From contig NZ_JAALJI010000013.1 of NCBI RefSeq assembly GCF_011064595.1, positions 1 through 64,000 of the forward strand: a stretch of 64,000 nt of DNA, read 5' to 3'. Below, piece after piece: positions 49,119-59,425 of the stretch; the first letter of the stretch is position 1; every line of letters starts with the position of its first letter. Below the pieces are notes generated by a model that did no database searches, was not told the DNA's origin, and saw nothing but the letters and a program-made list of their open reading frames with translations. The position numbers were made by a program, and so were the translations under genes. The stretch is from Paludisphaera soli. GTDB taxonomy: Bacteria; Planctomycetota; Planctomycetia; Isosphaerales; Isosphaeraceae.

Positions 49119-49233
49119 GGGCCCCCCGCGCGGCGGAAGCCTCGACCCTCGGCTCGGCCCGGTGGTAGACTCAGGGACCGGTCCGCGGTCGCGCCCGGGG
49201 TCATCGAGGTCGTCCGGGGTGGGGAGTCGGTTG

Positions 49234-52089
49234 ATGTCCGAGGGTCGCCTGTCTCCCCCCGCTCCGAGGTCGTCCAGGTCGGAGAAGTCACGGGACGATC
49301 GGTCTCCCTCCGGGGCCGCCTGGGGCCTGCGGTTGTTCGACGCGGTGCTCATCGGATTCTTCCTGACGCTCGGTTTCCTGCTGGGCGTCTTCCGCCTCAA
49401 GGACACGGACTTCTACTGGCACCTTCGGACGGGCAACCTCATCCGCCAGTCAGGCCAGATCCCGCGTGTGGACTTCTACACCTTCACGCGCGCGGGATCG
49501 CCCTGGATCGACCTGCACTGGATCTTCCAGGTCGCCATCAGTTGGGTCTACGAACAGGGGGGCGTCCCGGCGCTGACCCTGGCGAAATGTCTGGTCACCT
49601 GCGCGGCGCTCCTGTTCCTGATCACGGCGAGGCGTCGCGAATGGCCGGTCTGGGCGATGATCCTCGCGTGGATCCCCGCCCTGCTCGTGCTCTCGGGCCG
49701 CATGTACATCCGCCCCGAGACGTTGACGCTCCTCTACCTGTCGATCTTCCTGGCGGTCCTCTGCCGCTGGGACCGTCGGCCCTGGCTCGCCTGGGCCCTG
49801 CCGATCGTGCAGGTGGCCTGGGTGAACTCTCACGGCCTGTTCATCCTGGGGCCGATCATCCTCGGCTTCGCCCTGATCGACGCGGCGCTCCGGCGGGGGG
49901 CCCTTTCCGTGGATCGGCGGCGATGGTGGTCGACGGTCGTGCCGGCCTCGGCCGCGACCGGGCTGGCCTGCCTGCTGAATCCCTACGGCCTCCACGGGGC
50001 GATCTACCCGCTGGAACTGGCCGGCACGATGCGGAGCCCGGACTTCTCGCGGACGATCGCCGAGCTGAAGCCGATCCCGCAGTTCATCCAGGAGAGCGGA
50101 TTCGGCAACGTGCCGCTGCAGATCCACTTCGCGACCATCGCGCTCGGCGCCCTCAGCTTCCTGATCCCGATCCTCGACGCTGGGGCCTCGCGGCTCCGGG
50201 GCGAGCGGGCCGCAAGCGAGCCCGCCCCCCCGCCCGAGCCGGACGGCCGCAAGCGGAAGCGTGCGAAGGACCCAGAAGCGGCGTCGACGAAGAAGACGAC
50301 CCGGAAGGCGAAGCCCGCGACCTCGGCGCCGGACGAGGCTGATCGGCCCGGCTGGCGGATCAGCCTGCTCCGGCTGCTTCTGTTCGCCGCCTTCTCGATC
50401 CTGAGCTTGCAGGCGACGCGGAACAGCCACCAGTTCGCGGCCGTGGTGGGGACCGTGACCGCCTGGAACTTCGCCGAGTGGGTCGCCGCCCGCCACGCCC
50501 GTCGCCAGGCCGCCGGGATGGCGGACGCGCCTTCGGACGCCGTGCGGCCCCGGGTCGTCGCTCTCGTGGCCCTCATCTTCCTGACTTTCGCCGTGGGGAG
50601 CGGGTTCTTATACACCTGGGCCGGCGAGGGTCGCGTGATCGGCTGGGGTGAGGAGCCGCTCTGGTTCCCCCACGAGTCGGCGAAGTTCGCGGGCGGGCCC
50701 GAGATGCCCGACCGCTTCCTCAGCTTCCACAACGGCCACGCCTCGCTGTTCATCTACTACCACAGCCCGGAGCGGCCGGGAGGCCCGGGGAAGACCGTCT
50801 TCACCGATCCACGCCTCGAGGTCACCGGCCCGGAGCTTTACCGCCGCTATCTCGACATCAAGGATTGGATCGCGAAGGACAACCCCCGCTGGCAGCGCGA
50901 GCTAGACGCCGAGGGGCGGCCGTCGATCCTGGTCGACCACGAGTACAACACCGAGGTCGGCGCCGCTCTGCTCAGGAGCGGGCGCTGGCGATGCGTCCGG
51001 TTCGACGACATCTCGGCGGTGTTCGTCCACGAGTCCTACCGCGAGGCCGTGGCGGCCCACGAGGTCGACTTCGCGGCCCGGCACTTCCGGCCGTCGGCCG
51101 AGTTCGAGCCCCGCGGCGAGGCGGCCCTGATCGCCGCGTCGAAGGGCCTGCGCAACTATGCGAACTTCCTCAGCGCCGGGGCGCGGGGCGACCTGACCCG
51201 GCCCATCCTCTGGCTGGCCCTCGACTACGCCCGCCGGGTCGTGAGGGCCGAGCCCGACTCGCTGGAGGGGTGGAAGTCGCTCGGCTACGCCGAACTGCTG
51301 CGCGATCCGACCGCGCCCGCGGCCCGCTGCCGCGTCCCGTTCGACCCCGTATTCGACCTGTCGCCGGCGCGGGCCACCTACGCGCTACGCCGGGCCTCGT
51401 CGATCGCCCCTCGCGACTTCCTCAGCCTCGCGGTGCTCCAGAAGTCGTACGAGAATCGGGGGATGCTGGAGCCCCTCCTCAAGGTCCTGGACCGCGTGCT
51501 GCTGCTGAGCCCGATCAACCCGCAGCAGACGGGGCTCCAGAACGAGGCCGCGGCCATGCGGGGGCCGATCCTTCAGCGCCTGGCCGAGCCGATCCCCACC
51601 TCGTGGAAGAACATCGACGAGCTGGACCGGCTCGTCGAACATGAACTGGAGTTGGGCCGCGTGGAGACGGCGGCGGCGTTGCTGGAGAGCGCCTATCCGC
51701 CGGGGAAGGGGGGCTGGGACGCCGTCGAGCGGCTCTCGACGATCCTCCTGCATCTGGGCGAGCCGGGGCGGGCCCGCGAATACCTGCGGCAGGCCCCGAA
51801 CGTCCCGAAGCCGGCCGTCCGCGACGCCCGGTTGGCCGCCTGCGACCTGGTGGAAGGCCGGTTCGACGAGGCCCGCGAGCTGTATCTCCGGGCGATCGCC
51901 GCCGACCCTTCGCTGTTCGAGGCCCGATATGGCCTGGCCGTGCTCGAACAGGACGACGCCCGCGCCGCCGAGGCTTATGAGCAGGCGATGGCCGCCGTGG
52001 CCTGCGCCCCCGGCGACGCGGCCCGGAGCGTGGCCCAGGCCGTCGCTTCGGCGGTCCGTCGCTTCGCCGTCGCCGATCGCCCCGAGTAA
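49234..52089 (+). CDS. Large multi-pass membrane protein with TPR-like C-terminus
   Basis: 951 residues from ATG at 49234, with GGGGAG seven bases upstream. After a polar Ser/Arg-rich lead the protein has about nine or ten TM helices (for example LFDAVLIGFFLTLGFLLGVF, WAMILAWIPALLVLSGRMYI, WALPIVQVAWVNSHGLFILG). KDTDFYWHLRTGNLIRQSGQ right after TM1 is a motif seen in GT-C-like membrane proteins of unknown specificity. The C-terminal 350 residues are helical repeats resembling TPRs (AREYLRQAPNVPKPAVRDAR, EARELYLRAIAADPSLFEAR). A Lys/Arg-rich cytoplasmic loop lies near residues 340-370. Possibly a polyprenyl-sugar glycosyltransferase, unproven. Confidence 0.82.
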   Translation: MSEGRLSPPAPRSSRSEKSRDDRSPSGAAWGLRLFDAVLIGFFLTLGFLLGVFRLKDTDFYWHLRTGNLIRQSGQIPRVDFYTFTRAGSPWIDLHWIFQVAISWVYEQGGVPALTLAKCLVTCAALLFLITARRREWPVWAMILAWIPALLVLSGRMYIRPETLTLLYLSIFLAVLCRWDRRPWLAWALPIVQVAWVNSHGLFILGPIILGFALIDAALRRGALSVDRRRWWSTVVPASAATGLACLLNPYGLHGAIYPLELAGTMRSPDFSRTIAELKPIPQFIQESGFGNVPLQIHFATIALGALSFLIPILDAGASRLRGERAASEPAPPPEPDGRKRKRAKDPEAASTKKTTRKAKPATSAPDEADRPGWRISLLRLLLFAAFSILSLQATRNSHQFAAVVGTVTAWNFAEWVAARHARRQAAGMADAPSDAVRPRVVALVALIFLTFAVGSGFLYTWAGEGRVIGWGEEPLWFPHESAKFAGGPEMPDRFLSFHNGHASLFIYYHSPERPGGPGKTVFTDPRLEVTGPELYRRYLDIKDWIAKDNPRWQRELDAEGRPSILVDHEYNTEVGAALLRSGRWRCVRFDDISAVFVHESYREAVAAHEVDFAARHFRPSAEFEPRGEAALIAASKGLRNYANFLSAGARGDLTRPILWLALDYARRVVRAEPDSLEGWKSLGYAELLRDPTAPAARCRVPFDPVFDLSPARATYALRRASSIAPRDFLSLAVLQKSYENRGMLEPLLKVLDRVLLLSPINPQQTGLQNEAAAMRGPILQRLAEPIPTSWKNIDELDRLVEHELELGRVETAAALLESAYPPGKGGWDAVERLSTILLHLGEPGRAREYLRQAPNVPKPAVRDARLAACDLVEGRFDEARELYLRAIAADPSLFEARYGLAVLEQDDARAAEAYEQAMAAVACAPGDAARSVAQAVASAVRRFAVADRPE

Positions 52090-52838: not shown

Positions 52839-55800
52839 TCACAGGACCATCCGGGCCATCGGCGCGAGCCGGGCGAGGGGGGCGACGCGGCCGAGCCGTC
52901 CCGCCGTTCGGCGGACGACGGAGTTGACGTGGCTGTTGAAGCTCGCGGAGGTCTCCTGGGGCGTGCCGTCGAGAAAGGTCACCGCTGGGGAGCCCCCCCG
53001 GGTCGACAGCGACCGCCAGGTGATGCTGGCGACGAAGTCGGTCCCCGGCTCGTTCCGGCCCGAGCCGTCCAGCCCGACGCCCGAGGCCCCGGCCACCCCC
53101 TGCGGCAGCCGGCCGTTGAGCACCAGGCTGTACGTCCAGTGGATGTTCAGCCGCTGCGAGGGGTAGAGCGTGACAGTGAAGGTCGCCGGGTCGTAGACCG
53201 CCCGCGAGACCGGGATCAGCCGCCCGCCGCCCCGGGTGATCCGTTAGTTGGCGGGATCCTGGGCGGAGGCCGCGTCGAGGGCGCTGTTGAACGTCAGGGC
53301 GATCGTCGTGGGCGAGAAATGGAAGCCGTAGCGGCTGAGGCCGACGACCCGCGGCCCGGCGGCGTCGAGGACAACCTCGGACACGCTGGCCGAGGAGTCG
53401 CCGCTCGCCGAGGTGTAGACGGCCCGCAGGGTGCTGACGCCCAGGGGCAGCGCCCCGACATTGAGGCTGGCCGAGCCGTTCACGACCGGCACGGTCCCGA
53501 GGAGGGTGGTGCCGTTGTAGAACGAGACGGTCCCATCGAGCGGCGGGTCTCCCGGCGTGGTCGGGACGATCGCGGCCGTCAGCACGGTCGTCCCGTCGGC
53601 CTGGGTCGCCGCCGTGAAGGTCGTGCTGGTCCCGGCCGGGTCGACCAGGACCGAGACCGGCACCAGCGAGGTAACGGGGGCGTAGTTGGCGTCGCCGGCG
53701 TAGACGGCGCGGATGACGTGCCCGCCCACCGAGAGCCGGGCGTTGGGGAGCACCGCCTGGCCACGCATCGTCGGCACATCCTGGGCCGCGAGGCCCGCCA
53801 GCGACGAGGGCGTCATCGGTGCTGAGCCGAGGTAGACGTCGCCGTCGTAGAAGGCGACGTTCCCGGTCATCGGCGCCCCCGCCGAAGCGGCGGTGAGGGT
53901 CACGCTCTCGCCGTAGTAGACCTGCGGCTCGGACGAGACGATCGCCCCGGCGGCCGTGTCGTTGCGGGTGATCTCCACCGTGATCGGGGAAGAGGCGACG
54001 GACCGGAAATAGGCGTCGCCCGCGTAGATCGCCATGTAATGGATTTGACCGGTCGCGAGGCTGGAGAAGGAAGCCGTCGCCACGCCCTGGGCGTCGAGCG
54101 TGGCCGTGCCGATCAGCTCGTCGCCGGCTTAGAAGCCGACGAGCCCGGTCGGGAAGAGGCCCGCATAGGAGGCCACGGTCATGGTGAAGACGACGGGCCG
54201 GCCGTATTCGGCCGTCTCGGGCGATGCCGCGAAGGTCGTCGCCGAGGTGACCAGCACCGACTGCACGACGCTGGAAGACCGAGCGGCCGCATGGACCGAA
54301 TCGCCGTTGTAGACGGCGAAGATCGGATGCGGGCCGGGCTCCAGCCCGGACATCGAGAACGTCGCCACGCCGTCGACCAGGGGGACGACGCCCAGCAGGA
54401 TGGTCCCGGTCATGAACGAGACCGAGCCGCTCGGCATAGCGAGGCCCGCCGTCGTGGCGGCGACGCTCGCCGTGAAGACGATCGATTGCCCCGGCGAGCT
54501 GGGAATGGCCGAGGACGCGATCGTGGTCGTGACGGCCGCCCCCCGGACCGTGAACTCATAGACGTTCCGGGTCGACGCCAGATTGTTGTCCAGGACGCTG
54601 ATGATCCCGCCGAAGGGCATGCCCTCGGTGCTCGTGGGGATCCCCGAGATGAGCCCGCTCTCGCTGAGCGTCAGGCCCGGCGGAAGGCCGCCTTCGAGGC
54701 TGTAGACGTATCCCTGGCCCGAGCCCCCGGTGGCGACGAGCTGCTGGCTGTAGTAGGTGCCGACGACGAACGTCGGCAGGGTCGCCGGGCTGATCGCCAG
54801 GGCGGGGTTGACCACCAGGCTGTAGGTCGCGGTCCCCACTCCGCCGTTGTCGCCGACGGCGGTGACGATCACCGAATATGGCGAGCCTGAGGAACTGGTC
54901 GGGGTGCCGGTCAGCTCACCCGTCGGGCAGAGCGTCAGGCCGGCGGGCAGCCCTGTCGCGCTGTAAACGTAGCCGCTGCCCGAGCCGCCCGAGGCCGTGA
55001 GTTCCACCAGGAAATCGTTGTTCACCGTCATGATCGGCAGTGAGGCCGTCGTCGGCGTGCCGATCAGGAGGCCCTCGGGAGAGAGCGACAGGCCCGGCGG
55101 CAGGGCGCTGGCGTCGGGCGAGACGCTGAAGACGTAGCCCTGGCCCGAGCCCCCCGTGGCCGTGAACTGCTGCTCGAACGCGTTCATCGCGGTGAGCGTC
55201 GGCAGCGATGCAGGGGTGACGGCCACCGTCGAATAGACGGTGATCTCATACTCCTGGGTGTGCTCTGCGTTCTGGTCGTCCACCACGGTCACGGTGAACG
55301 TATACACGCCCGGGTCGTCGTTGACGTAGCCCATGATCTGGCCCCCGCCGCCCATCATCAGGCCGTTCGGCAGGCCGGTGGCGGAGAAGGCGTAGCCCTG
55401 TCCCGAGCCCCCTGACGCCGTGAGCTGAGGGGCGTACAGGTTACCGACCGCCGTGTTCGGCAGCGTCAGCGGGCTGATGGAGATCGCCGGATTCACCGGG
55501 ATAGTATAGGTGTCGACGGTGCTGGCGCCCTGGTCGTCGGTCAAGGTGACCAGGACCGTGAACGGCGAGCCCGTCGTCGTGGTCGGCGTGCCCGTCATGA
55601 GGCCGCTCGAGCTGATGCTCAGGCCCGGCGGCAGCGTGGCCGAACTGAACGTGTAGCCCTGGCCGGAGCCGCCCGTGGGGCTGAGTTGGAGGCTGTAGGG
55701 GCTGCCCACGGTCGGGACGTCGATCGTGCCGTGGGTGATGTCGAGGGCGGGGTTGACGGTCAGCGAGTAGGAGACCTCGCCGGTGGCGCCGTTCGAGTCG

Positions 55801-57991
55801 GTGACCGTCACCAGCACGGTATAGGGCGAGCCCGCGTTGCCGGTCGGAGTGCCCGTGATCACGCCCCCCGCGCTGATGGCGAGGCCCGTCGGCAGGCCGG
55901 TTGCGCTGAACGTGTATCCCGTGCCCAAGCCCCCGAAGCCGGTCAGGGTCGCCGTGTACGCGCTCCCCACGGCCGGCTGGGCGAGGGACGCCGGGGTAGC
56001 CGAGATCGCCGGGTTGATCGCGAGCGTGCTCGAAACGACCCGGACGTTCCCGTCGCCGTCGGTGACGGTGACGTCGACCGTGAACGGCGACCCCATATCG
56101 CTCGTCGGAGTGCCGGTGACGAGGCCGCTCGCATTCATCGAAAGCCCGGCGGGCAGGCCGGTCGCCGAGTAGGTGTAGCCGGATCCCGAGCCGCCCGTGG
56201 CGGTCGTCTGGAAGGAGTAGGCGCTGTCCACGGCCCCGGGCGTGAAGGACGTCGAAAGCGAGATGGCCGTGTAGACGGTGAGCGTCACGGCCTGCGAATC
56301 GTCCGGCGAGATGCCGTTCGCGGCGGTGATGGTAAGGTTGTAGACCGCGGCCTGTCCCGCGGCCGGGGTGCCCGTGATGGTCGCCGTGCCGTCGCCGTTG
56401 TCTATGAACGTCAGGCCGGTCGGGAGCATCTCGGTGTACGAGATCGCGGCCGTGGGCGAGCCTGTCGTCTCGATGATGAAAGTGCCGTCGCTCCCGACCG
56501 CGAACGAGGCGGCCGACCCGCTGGTGATCTCCGGCGCACTGGTCTGCGTCGCCTGCACCGCGCCGATGTCGACCATGCTGTTGTTCGTCCGGGGCTCCCC
56601 GCGCTGGTCGGTCGTGACCGAGACGGGGACGGCCGCGAGGTCGCCCGCCTCCAGGGCCGGGCTGTCGCTCGCCGGCAGGAATGTCCGGGTCGGTCCGCCG
56701 TTGTCGGCCAGGGCGCCGAGCTTGGGGTCGGCGTTGGAGACGATCGTCCCGGAGAAGTTGACCGCGTCGCCGATCAAATTGCCGACCTCGGTGGCGGTGA
56801 AGCCACCGGAATTGATCGAGTTGCTCATGATGTCGGCGGTCGACCCATAGAGGATCGAATTGTTGACGACGACCGAGGAGACGTTGTCGTCCCCGAGGTT
56901 GTAGACGGCGCCGCCGTACTCGGCGATGTTCTGGTAGAACGTGGCGAGGTCGATCGTGAGTTCGCCGTTGTAGTTGAACACGGCGCCACCAAGCCCCTGG
57001 CCGTCGGTGTCCCCCGACCCGCCCGTCACGGAGTTGTTGGTGAACGTCGAGTTCAGGATGTTGACCGTGCCCTGATGGTTGAAGTTGGCGCCGCCGAAGC
57101 CGGCCCCGCCGCCCCCCTGGTAGGTCCCGCCGATGGAATTTCCGCCGGAGCTGGCGCCGAAGCCGCGTTGCCCTCCCGTGGCGCCCGCGCCGCCGCCGCC
57201 GCCGAAGCCGCCGGCTCCGCCCGTCCCGCTGATCCTGAAGCCGCCGCCGCCGCCACCGCCGCCGAAGCCCCCCTGGCCGCCCGTGGTGGACATGGCTCCG
57301 CCGCCGCCGCCGCCCAGGTAGGCGTCCGAGAGCCCGGTGCCGTCTCCGCCTTCGAAGTTATAGGCTCCGCCGCCGCCGCCGTCGGTGACCGCTTCCGGGG
57401 TCGACATGGCGCTGCCGCCGCCGTAAGCGAATGTCCCGCCGGCGTTCAGGCCGCCGGCGCCCGAGAAGATGTCGTCGCCGACCCCGCCGTCCCCGCTCGG
57501 GCCGGCCACGCCGCCACCGCCGCCCGGGTTCGTGCCATTCTTCGCCCCGCCGGCGCCCCCCGCGCCGCCCACGGCACCGCCGCCGCCGGACGAGTCGGTG
57601 CTGCTCGCCCCCGCGCCGCCAGCGCCCCCCCGGGCGAGCCCGTCGGCGACCGTGACGTTCATCAGCGACAGGCCGCCTCCGCTACCGACGCCGAAGATCC
57701 GCCGCTCCTGGTTCCCGCTGATGGTGAGGCCGGGGGGCCGCCCGCGTCGATCGTCACCTCGTCGGCGCCGATCGTCAGCGCCGTGGGGCCGAAGTCGGTC
57801 GTCTCGCTGTTCGTCAACAGGGATATCGTGAATCCCGCGAGGTCGCCGTTGAACGTGATCAGGTCGCGCTCGGCGTTCGCGGCGGCGTCCAGCATGGCCT
57901 GGCGGAGCGTGCCCACGCCCGCGTCGCCCGGGTCGACGACGACGAAGACCGCGGGGACCGCCCGATCCTCCGGCGACTCTAGGAGCGGCAT
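52839..57991 (-). pseudogene. Giant putative-Ig (He_PIG) surface protein gene, disrupted
   Basis: One reading frame, interrupted three times. It begins at ATG 57991 with the planctomycete sorting motif (MPLLESPEDRAVPAVFVV) and a CSLREA-like start (GVGTLRQAMLDAAANAERDL). Near 57732-57737 a run of six C (minus strand) shifts the frame; adding one C would join TIDAGG to a continuing TISGNQERRIFGVGSGGG. The frame then runs through a Gly-rich region, a choice-of-anchor-Q-like domain (SPALEAGDLAAVPVSVTTDQ) and about nine He_PIG domains (LPAGLSMNASGLVTGTPTSD and relatives). Next come Ig-like repeats with a TAA at 54129-54131 inside LVGF*AGDELIG, and a second TAA at 53244-53246 inside DPAN*RITRGGG. 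It ends at 52839. Both TAA replace an expected Tyr. The same frame (mod 3) is kept across both stops. Confidence 0.8.
54129..57662 (-). CDS. Largest uninterrupted fragment of the giant surface protein (1177 aa)
   Basis: Open frame from ATG 57662 to the first premature TAA. Contains the Gly-rich segment (56.9-57.6 kb), anchor-Q-like domain (56.5-56.9 kb), tandem He_PIG domains (54.6-56.4 kb) and the first Ig-like repeats. As it lacks both the export motif (before 57662) and the C-terminal part, it is unlikely to work alone. An annotation pipeline may call it a separate gene. Confidence 0.55.
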   Translation of the reverse strand: MNVTVADGLARGGAGGAGASSTDSSGGGGAVGGAGGAGGAKNGTNPGGGGGVAGPSGDGGVGDDIFSGAGGLNAGGTFAYGGGSAMSTPEAVTDGGGGGAYNFEGGDGTGLSDAYLGGGGGGAMSTTGGQGGFGGGGGGGGFRISGTGGAGGFGGGGGAGATGGQRGFGASSGGNSIGGTYQGGGGAGFGGANFNHQGTVNILNSTFTNNSVTGGSGDTDGQGLGGAVFNYNGELTIDLATFYQNIAEYGGAVYNLGDDNVSSVVVNNSILYGSTADIMSNSINSGGFTATEVGNLIGDAVNFSGTIVSNADPKLGALADNGGPTRTFLPASDSPALEAGDLAAVPVSVTTDQRGEPRTNNSMVDIGAVQATQTSAPEITSGSAASFAVGSDGTFIIETTGSPTAAISYTEMLPTGLTFIDNGDGTATITGTPAAGQAAVYNLTITAANGISPDDSQAVTLTVYTAISLSTSFTPGAVDSAYSFQTTATGGSGSGYTYSATGLPAGLSMNASGLVTGTPTSDMGSPFTVDVTVTDGDGNVRVVSSTLAINPAISATPASLAQPAVGSAYTATLTGFGGLGTGYTFSATGLPTGLAISAGGVITGTPTGNAGSPYTVLVTVTDSNGATGEVSYSLTVNPALDITHGTIDVPTVGSPYSLQLSPTGGSGQGYTFSSATLPPGLSISSSGLMTGTPTTTTGSPFTVLVTLTDDQGASTVDTYTIPVNPAISISPLTLPNTAVGNLYAPQLTASGGSGQGYAFSATGLPNGLMMGGGGQIMGYVNDDPGVYTFTVTVVDDQNAEHTQEYEITVYSTVAVTPASLPTLTAMNAFEQQFTATGGSGQGYVFSVSPDASALPPGLSLSPEGLLIGTPTTASLPIMTVNNDFLVELTASGGSGSGYVYSATGLPAGLTLCPTGELTGTPTSSSGSPYSVIVTAVGDNGGVGTATYSLVVNPALAISPATLPTFVVGTYYSQQLVATGGSGQGYVYSLEGGLPPGLTLSESGLISGIPTSTEGMPFGGIISVLDNNLASTRNVYEFTVRGAAVTTTIASSAIPSSPGQSIVFTASVAATTAGLAMPSGSVSFMTGTILLGVVPLVDGVATFSMSGLEPGPHPIFAVYNGDSVHAAARSSSVVQSVLVTSATTFAASPETAEYGRPVVFTMTVASYAGLFPTGLVGF

Positions 57992-58276
57992 GCGGCGACG
58001 CTCGGGGCCGAGGCGCGAGGGCTTGCGGTGTTCCGGGGGCGACGCTTGAGACGCATGGTGGGGCGGCTCCGGCTGCGAGAGGTCGAACCCCGGAATTGGG
58101 CGGGGCTCGGCTCAGGTCGAGATTGGACGTCGATCGTCGGCATGGCGTCGCGGTACGGCCGTCGGGCCGACGATCGCATCACCGCCTAAACCATTAAGGC
58201 GCGCGGGCCGGGATGAGAACGTCGGGGATCGGAGAATGATCCGTGAATCCCTTCACCCGAGCCCCGTGCGGCGGGA
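57992..58276. other. Upstream region of the giant surface gene
   Basis: 285 bases between the giant gene start and the end of the glycosyltransferase gene. An Arg-rich frame at about 58057-57983 (MRLKRRPRNTASPRASAPSV) resembles the basic lead that precedes the sorting motif in other planctomycete surface proteins but is one frame off, so a further frameshift near 57990-58010 is possible. Confidence 0.4.
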
Positions 58277-59425
58277 TCAAGCCTCGCAGCAGGACAGGAT
58301 GCCCGAGAGGCATCCCGCGTAGGCTCGGGCCCGGACTTCGGCCGCGAACGCCGAGGCCCGATCGCGGGGGCCGCCGGGCCGCGACAGCACGGCGACGGCG
58401 TCGGAGATCGCCGACAGCGGCTGGCGGCCGACCAGCGCGCGGCCCGACCCCAGCTCCGCCACGGCACGTGCCGTCAGGCCCTGCTCTAGGTGGATGGGCA
58501 GGAGGATCTTCGCCCTCCCGAGGCAGAGCGCCGATTCGGTCGTGTTGAGGCCGCCGTGGTGGATCACGACGGCCGCCTCCGACGCCGCGCGCCCGATCGG
58601 CGGCGGGGTCTCGCGGACCGCAACCCCCGCGCCACGCAAGGCGACCTGGGGGGCGGTCGCGTTGCGGAGGTACGCTTCGCCGGCGAATCCGCTCGCGGCC
58701 AGGTGCGAAAGCAGGTCGCAGGCCCTCGGGAAGTCCCCGGACAGATAGGGGAAGAAGTGCCGGATCGGCCCGCTCGCGGGCGGAGTGGGTCGATGCAAGG
58801 GCTCGACCATCTCGTCGCGCCGGAATCCGCGATAGGCGTCGATCTCGGGCAGGGTGTGGACGAAGCGATCGCCGCTCCCCAGGGCTTCCGGGAGCGTCGC
58901 CGGCGCGGGGCGTCCTCGGCGGGCCAGGGCCTCGCGGATGTTCGCCAGGATCGGGGCGGGGTCGAATGTGGGAGCGGCTTGCGGGTTGATGGTCGGGAAA
59001 TCGTCCCCCTCGGCGGGGGGGACCGCGAAGCCGATCCCGATCGTCACGCAAGGGACCTCGCCGGACGCGGCCAGGTGCAGCGTCGGGGCGAAGTCGCAGA
59101 CGACCGCGTCGGCGCGGGTTTGCTCGACGATCGTCCGCCAGGCGTGGACGAGCAGGCCCAGGCCGTGAGGCTCGGCGTAACCGGCGATCCCCAGGACGTC
59201 GGTGAATCGAGACGCCTGGAATCCGGGCGGGGGCGGGGCGAGCCAGAGCGGCGCCTGCACGACGCGGTGGCGACGATCCCGGAGCAGGGGGGCCGAGGTT
59301 CGCAGGTCCTTGAGGGCGAGGATCGGCGAGTGGCCGCGTTCGGCCAGGGCGTCGGCGATCTCCAGCAGACGGGCCGCGTGGCCCAGGCCGCCGCCGAGTT
59401 CCCATCTCAGGAGGATCGTCTTCAT
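58277..59425 (-). CDS. Glycosyltransferase, GT1/MurG-like fold
   Basis: 382 residues from ATG at 59425. N-terminal acceptor domain: ILLRWELGGGLGHAARLLEI (Gly-rich loop), ADALAERGHSPILALKDLRT, ADAVVCDFAPTLHLAASGEV. C-terminal donor domain: AAVVIHHGGLNTTESALCLG, the typical sugar-nucleotide binding HHGGxxT, then LPIHLEQGLTARAVAELGSG. Members glycosylate lipids or small molecules. It lies 84 bases after the Gfo/Idh gene of the lipid A cluster, suggesting a role in glycolipid or surface polysaccharide, but a separate unit is possible. Confidence 0.85.
   Translation of the reverse strand: MKTILLRWELGGGLGHAARLLEIADALAERGHSPILALKDLRTSAPLLRDRRHRVVQAPLWLAPPPPGFQASRFTDVLGIAGYAEPHGLGLLVHAWRTIVEQTRADAVVCDFAPTLHLAASGEVPCVTIGIGFAVPPAEGDDFPTINPQAAPTFDPAPILANIREALARRGRPAPATLPEALGSGDRFVHTLPEIDAYRGFRRDEMVEPLHRPTPPASGPIRHFFPYLSGDFPRACDLLSHLAASGFAGEAYLRNATAPQVALRGAGVAVRETPPPIGRAASEAAVVIHHGGLNTTESALCLGRAKILLPIHLEQGLTARAVAELGSGRALVGRQPLSAISDAVAVLSRPGGPRDRASAFAAEVRARAYAGCLSGILSCCEA

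Follow-up and report, generated by a model that had tools for sequence, protein, structure and literature searches.

A probable recently inactivated giant surface-protein gene in the planctomycete Paludisphaera soli

The 64,000-nucleotide stretch of Paludisphaera soli DNA analysed here (the window) carries on its reverse strand what we consider, with high probability, to be a pseudogene, namely a recently inactivated and dispensable giant surface-protein gene of an Isosphaeraceae-like planctomycete. Measured against an intact orthologue at the same locus in a congener (G003), the gene is disabled by two in-frame TAA codons, one certain frame change and one probable frame change, and the locus lacks the gene altogether in four of five congeners. 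Its status as a pseudogene is read from DNA, in the assembled sequence of one strain. The sequence-only reading of this region had proposed recent pseudogenisation of an otherwise intact sequence; the comparison with relatives supports that proposal and adds two further lesions to those it described.

Gene architecture and lesions

Giant genes, defined as those longer than 5 kb, are a known feature of planctomycetes, Isosphaeraceae included (PMC5352709). With a coding length of about 5.2 kb between the ATG at 58056 and the TGA at 52839, the present gene falls within this class. On the minus strand, the frame read from 57728 extends over 1629 codons to the terminal TGA, with the two TAA codons as the only stops inside it. 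Tandem Ig-like repeats make up a large part of the gene, with eight stretches matching PF05345 and four matching PF16640. The C-terminal module matches PF13205 (Big_5) weakly here (E 2e-4, below the cut-off) and above the cut-off in the G003 orthologue. The ancestral gene, more than 5 kb long, would have encoded a basic N-terminus with a LEDR motif, a glycine-rich beta-helix-like region with a choice-of-anchor Q domain, He_PIG repeats, Big_3_5 domains and a Big_5-like C-terminal module (Table 1). This domain order is the one that would be expected of planctomycete giant surface-protein genes, and the domains suggest that the original product was secreted or exposed on the cell surface, perhaps resembling an adhesin or an S-layer protein.

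Table 1. Features of the decayed gene and its neighbour (positions in the window)
Feature	Position	Strand	Evidence or remark
Whole decayed gene	52839..58056	-	probable ATG 58056-58054 to terminal TGA 52839-52841; homologue architecture, start-to-LEDR distance, codon-phase signal
Probable first frame-change site, C5 run (between 58056 and ~58010)	58035..58039	-	
N-terminal planctomycete motif LLESPEDRAVPA (homologues LLEDR/FLEDRAVPA)	57962..57991	-	
C6 run with frame change	57732..57737	-	upstream frame open from 57991 to stop at 57662
Glycine-rich beta-helix-like region, choice-of-anchor Q domain at its end (P0001 residues 334-392)	56550..57728	-	NCBIfam NF041518, E 4e-17
He_PIG Ig-like repeat array, 8 stretches, period ~87 aa	54550..56550	-	Pfam PF05345, E 2e-59; spacing
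Junction of shortened repeat, ~96 nt absent, frame kept	55030..55060	-	unit of 55 aa vs 86-89
Big_3_5 Ig-like domains, n=4	53350..54540	-	Pfam PF16640, E 2e-44
In-frame TAA at conserved Tyr (VGF-Y-x-G)	54129..54131	-	
In-frame TAA at conserved Tyr (N-Y-R/Q-I)	53244..53246	-	
C-terminal module (GLSRYG...LTF.S.LD...NY.I), Big_5-like	52842..53320	-	PF13205
Neighbouring glycosyltransferase-like gene, intact	58277..59425	-	weak PF06722/MGT matches

Both TAA codons interrupt a frame that is otherwise coding throughout. According to the sequence-only reading, the same frame continues with coding quality across each of them, and this is what we find: under a codon-usage model for which 155 long genes from the source genome served as training set, the four segments score 0.33, 0.25, 0.27 and 0.23 (both alternative frames score -0.41 or lower), their GC3 values are 0.952, 0.922, 0.939 and 0.963, and the codon-phase signal is undiminished past both stops. 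The same reading expected tyrosine at the two positions, and tyrosine is indeed present there in all alignable homologues. At the upstream site (54129-54131) the aligned residue is Tyr in G001 and G003 (VGFY) and in G004 and G005 (VAFY); at the downstream site (53244-53246) it is Tyr in these same four genomes and in the source genome's own paralogue C130 (NYR, NYQ or KYR). Genome-wide rates were taken from a 464 kb sample of the source genome, in which seven stops are flanked on either side by strong coding signal; apart from these two none of the seven is TAA, and some of the remaining five are plain gene borders.

That two independent nonsense changes both turned Tyr into TAA had been called striking, which overstates the case. 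Stops can arise in this gene by 297 single-base routes, of which 58 lead from Tyr to TAA, and the chance that both nonsense changes would be of this kind lies between 0.02 and 0.04 (about 0.04 with equal rates, 0.02-0.03 with a transition bias). If C-to-A changes dominate, TAC-to-TAA accounts for 47 of 125 routes and the chance rises to 0.14. The pattern is a mild coincidence (2-14%) that requires no special cause.

A frame shift at a C run near 57732 had also been proposed, and the C6 run listed in Table 1 bears it out: homologues pass this region in one frame, with six residues separating TID from LTISG. The placement of the gene start at 57991 fares less well, as the original gene probably began upstream of this position. 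In G003, G004 and G005 the homologues open with a basic stretch and reach the LEDR motif 28-29 codons after their start; in the source gene the LEDR-type motif is present and a basic N-terminal stretch (MRLKRRPRNT, from ATG 58056) lies in another frame. The distance from ATG 58056 to the position matching LEDR is 83 nt, compared with 84-87 in the homologues, and the codon model prefers the ATG 58056 frame over roughly the first ten codons and the 57991 frame thereafter. Because of where the homologues start, we take ATG 58056 to be the probable original start, which in turn makes an additional one-base frame change probable between this ATG and LEDR, at or near the C5 run; homology and a short codon-model signal both point to it.

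A further irregularity lies in the He_PIG array, where successive repeats are spaced 87, 87, 87, 86, 55 and 87 aa apart, leaving a gap near 55040, whereas all 19 units of the G003 orthologue are 86-89 aa apart. This is probably a partial repeat deletion at about 55040. It keeps the frame and could be older than the loss of the gene, and the fold of the shortened Ig unit should nevertheless be broken. Small mutations would have built up to inactivate the gene: one-base frame changes at two C-rich runs (that at the C6 run certain, the other probable), the conversion of two Tyr codons into stops, and the partial repeat deletion, with slippage and point mutation as the presumed causes.

Homologues and the accessory status of the locus

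The syntenic orthologue in G003 (L021:6909-15746) is an uninterrupted frame of 2946 aa flanked by the same TPR-protein gene and the same downstream genes. It shares the domain order of the source gene and 48.9% identity over 1309 aligned residues, and differs from it in being unbroken and in having 19 regularly spaced He_PIG units as opposed to about seven. The flanking genes themselves (the TPR-protein gene at 49162-52089 and the genes from about 59510 on) are conserved in each of the five congeners that were searched. In four of these (G001, G002, G004 and G005) the same flanks lie only about 24-57 bp apart and the surface gene is absent at the locus. Since the flanks are nearly adjacent without it in these four, the gene is a dispensable, accessory one whose presence varies between species.

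Homologues are found at other genomic sites in G004 and G005, and a remnant is found at another site in the sister species G001 (L020:11175-12541). This remnant is the closest relative of the source gene (68% identity in amino acids, 78% in DNA) and is likewise decayed, being 5'-truncated and frameshifted. It differs in location, in comprising the C-terminal third only, in its frameshift and in having kept Tyr at both TAA positions. A protein scan of genome contigs with P0001 returned no matches, and a scan with the C-terminal alignment A1 returned more distant relatives only, plus the G004 record.

Relative to G003, the source copy has a pN of 0.290 and the G001 fragment one of 0.308. As the source copy thus carries no excess of amino-acid change, its loss is likely to have been recent, and it was probably tolerated. 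The ratio dN/dS was considered as a test of relaxed selection and proved uninformative: pN/pS is about 0.6-0.8 even between intact copies, and substitution rates cannot reveal relaxed selection in a gene family that evolves this fast.

The glycosyltransferase-like gene next to the surface gene has no close match in the five congeners. The segment 52720-59510, which holds both, is an accessory one; in G003 the surface gene occurs but its glycosyltransferase-like neighbour does not.

Other explanations for the interrupted frame

Some or all of the lesions might be consensus errors of a draft assembly, such as indels in C runs and single-base miscalls, in which case the living gene would be intact. 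We regard this as unlikely, while acknowledging that the genome is a draft of 197 contigs, that two lesions lie at C runs and two are single-base changes, all possible types of error, and that the coding signal is otherwise intact. Against it stand a marker-gene completeness of 99.97% and the fact that nowhere else in the 464 kb sample, with its five other stops that have coding on both sides, is there a comparable cluster of lesions. Repeat collapse removes whole units and would not be expected to break the repeat phase, and a decayed copy exists in the sister species as well. Much less probable still is that the gene serves as a silent store, tolerating lesions while its segments are copied into expressed paralogues by gene conversion. 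Its repetitive nature and the presence of several domain paralogues in the genome would suit such a role; the best paralogous match, however, is 67% identical in DNA over 1 kb, more divergence than recent conversion would leave, near-identical long tracts are absent from the genome, and the intact paralogue C130 differs in its N-terminal half.

The sequence-only reading had itself offered phase variation at the C run and stop readthrough as alternatives, and neither holds up well. For a full-length product, two frame changes and two stops would need to be bypassed jointly, whether or not ribosomal slippage assists at the C run, and we consider this very improbable despite the frame change at a C6 run and despite TAA being the rarest stop in the sample (7 of 224). 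Phase variation is unlikely because C6 runs are common (403 C6/G6 runs in the 464 kb sample, or 8.7 per 10 kb) and a change at this one could not rescue the other lesions, leaving both TAA codons and the second frame change in place. The tract is of ordinary length and is accompanied by other disabling or probable lesions, unlike the unusually long tract, as sole lesion, of a phase-variable gene. As for readthrough, TAA ends normal genes in the sample, with coding sequence after it in none of seven cases. A TTA anticodon is absent from all 55 tRNA matches, and every tRNA-Tyr among them has GTA; one odd match (L105) has no clear anticodon (gg). Reassignment would place TAA at conserved Tyr in many genes and remove it as a terminator; only two such codons occur in 464 kb. 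Programmed recoding at several sites, through which C-run slippage and TAA read as Tyr would still yield the full-length surface protein, strikes us as scarcely credible.

Hardly more can be said for a series of independent genes, each starting on its own at a lesion, a reading we consider extremely improbable. Internal ATG and GTG codons do open mechanical ORFs of 1177, 279 and 94 aa, yet these starts have no N-terminal export region, coding signal and homology cross the stops within single Ig-like domains, and in the intact relatives the frame runs through unbroken, as the G003 gene between the same neighbours illustrates.

Significance and further observations in the genome

We therefore return to a recently inactivated gene as the preferred reading: an ordinary pseudogene of a fast-changing and dispensable gene type. 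It resembles the planctomycete giant genes described in PMC5352709, which cites the lists of Reva and Tummler 2008 and Kohn et al. 2016, in its size above 5 kb, its repeat-rich surface architecture, the occurrence of several such genes per genome, and its phylum and family. It differs in being broken, a condition that the published lists, as represented there, count giant genes without asking about. The locus documents the turnover of such genes, with one long copy in a congener, none at the locus in four others, a decaying copy in the source genome and a remnant at another site in its sister species. It is also a warning, as gene callers break up loci of this kind and report three or four spurious 'hypothetical proteins' in their place.

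Several other places in the source genome caught our attention. An in-frame TAG at L041:3116 (G000:C1:3116, minus strand) has strong coding on both sides (KRID*AAGND), reads like part of a single gene and possibly marks a nonsense-broken one, perhaps for a phage portal-type protein, and another at L049:3472 (G000:C165:3472, plus strand; KDDP*EPSRVEAIDG), also with coding on both sides, looks like the interruption of one primase-like gene. A scan for frame switches was noisy, with many of its 127 matches being natural gene junctions, and caps the number of other frameshifts only roughly. At L052:1400-3400 (G000:C187, ~201400-203400) there is a near-identical repeat block of about 1 kb with one translated stretch occurring twice; the TAG-containing open frames in it probably just mirror a repetitive gene encoded on the opposite strand. 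A cluster of tRNA-Ser(cga), tRNA-Ser(gct) and a low-scoring tRNA-Tyr(gta) at L112:85-441 (G000:C149:8884-9240) duplicates other tRNAs of the genome, and the 12 kb contig that carries it may be a mobile element or a contaminant. Beside a tRNA-Pro(ggg), finally, the tRNA-like gene at L105:105-178 (G000:C165:68105-68177) has an abnormal anticodon loop (ARAGORN: tRNA-???) and is probably a decayed tRNA.
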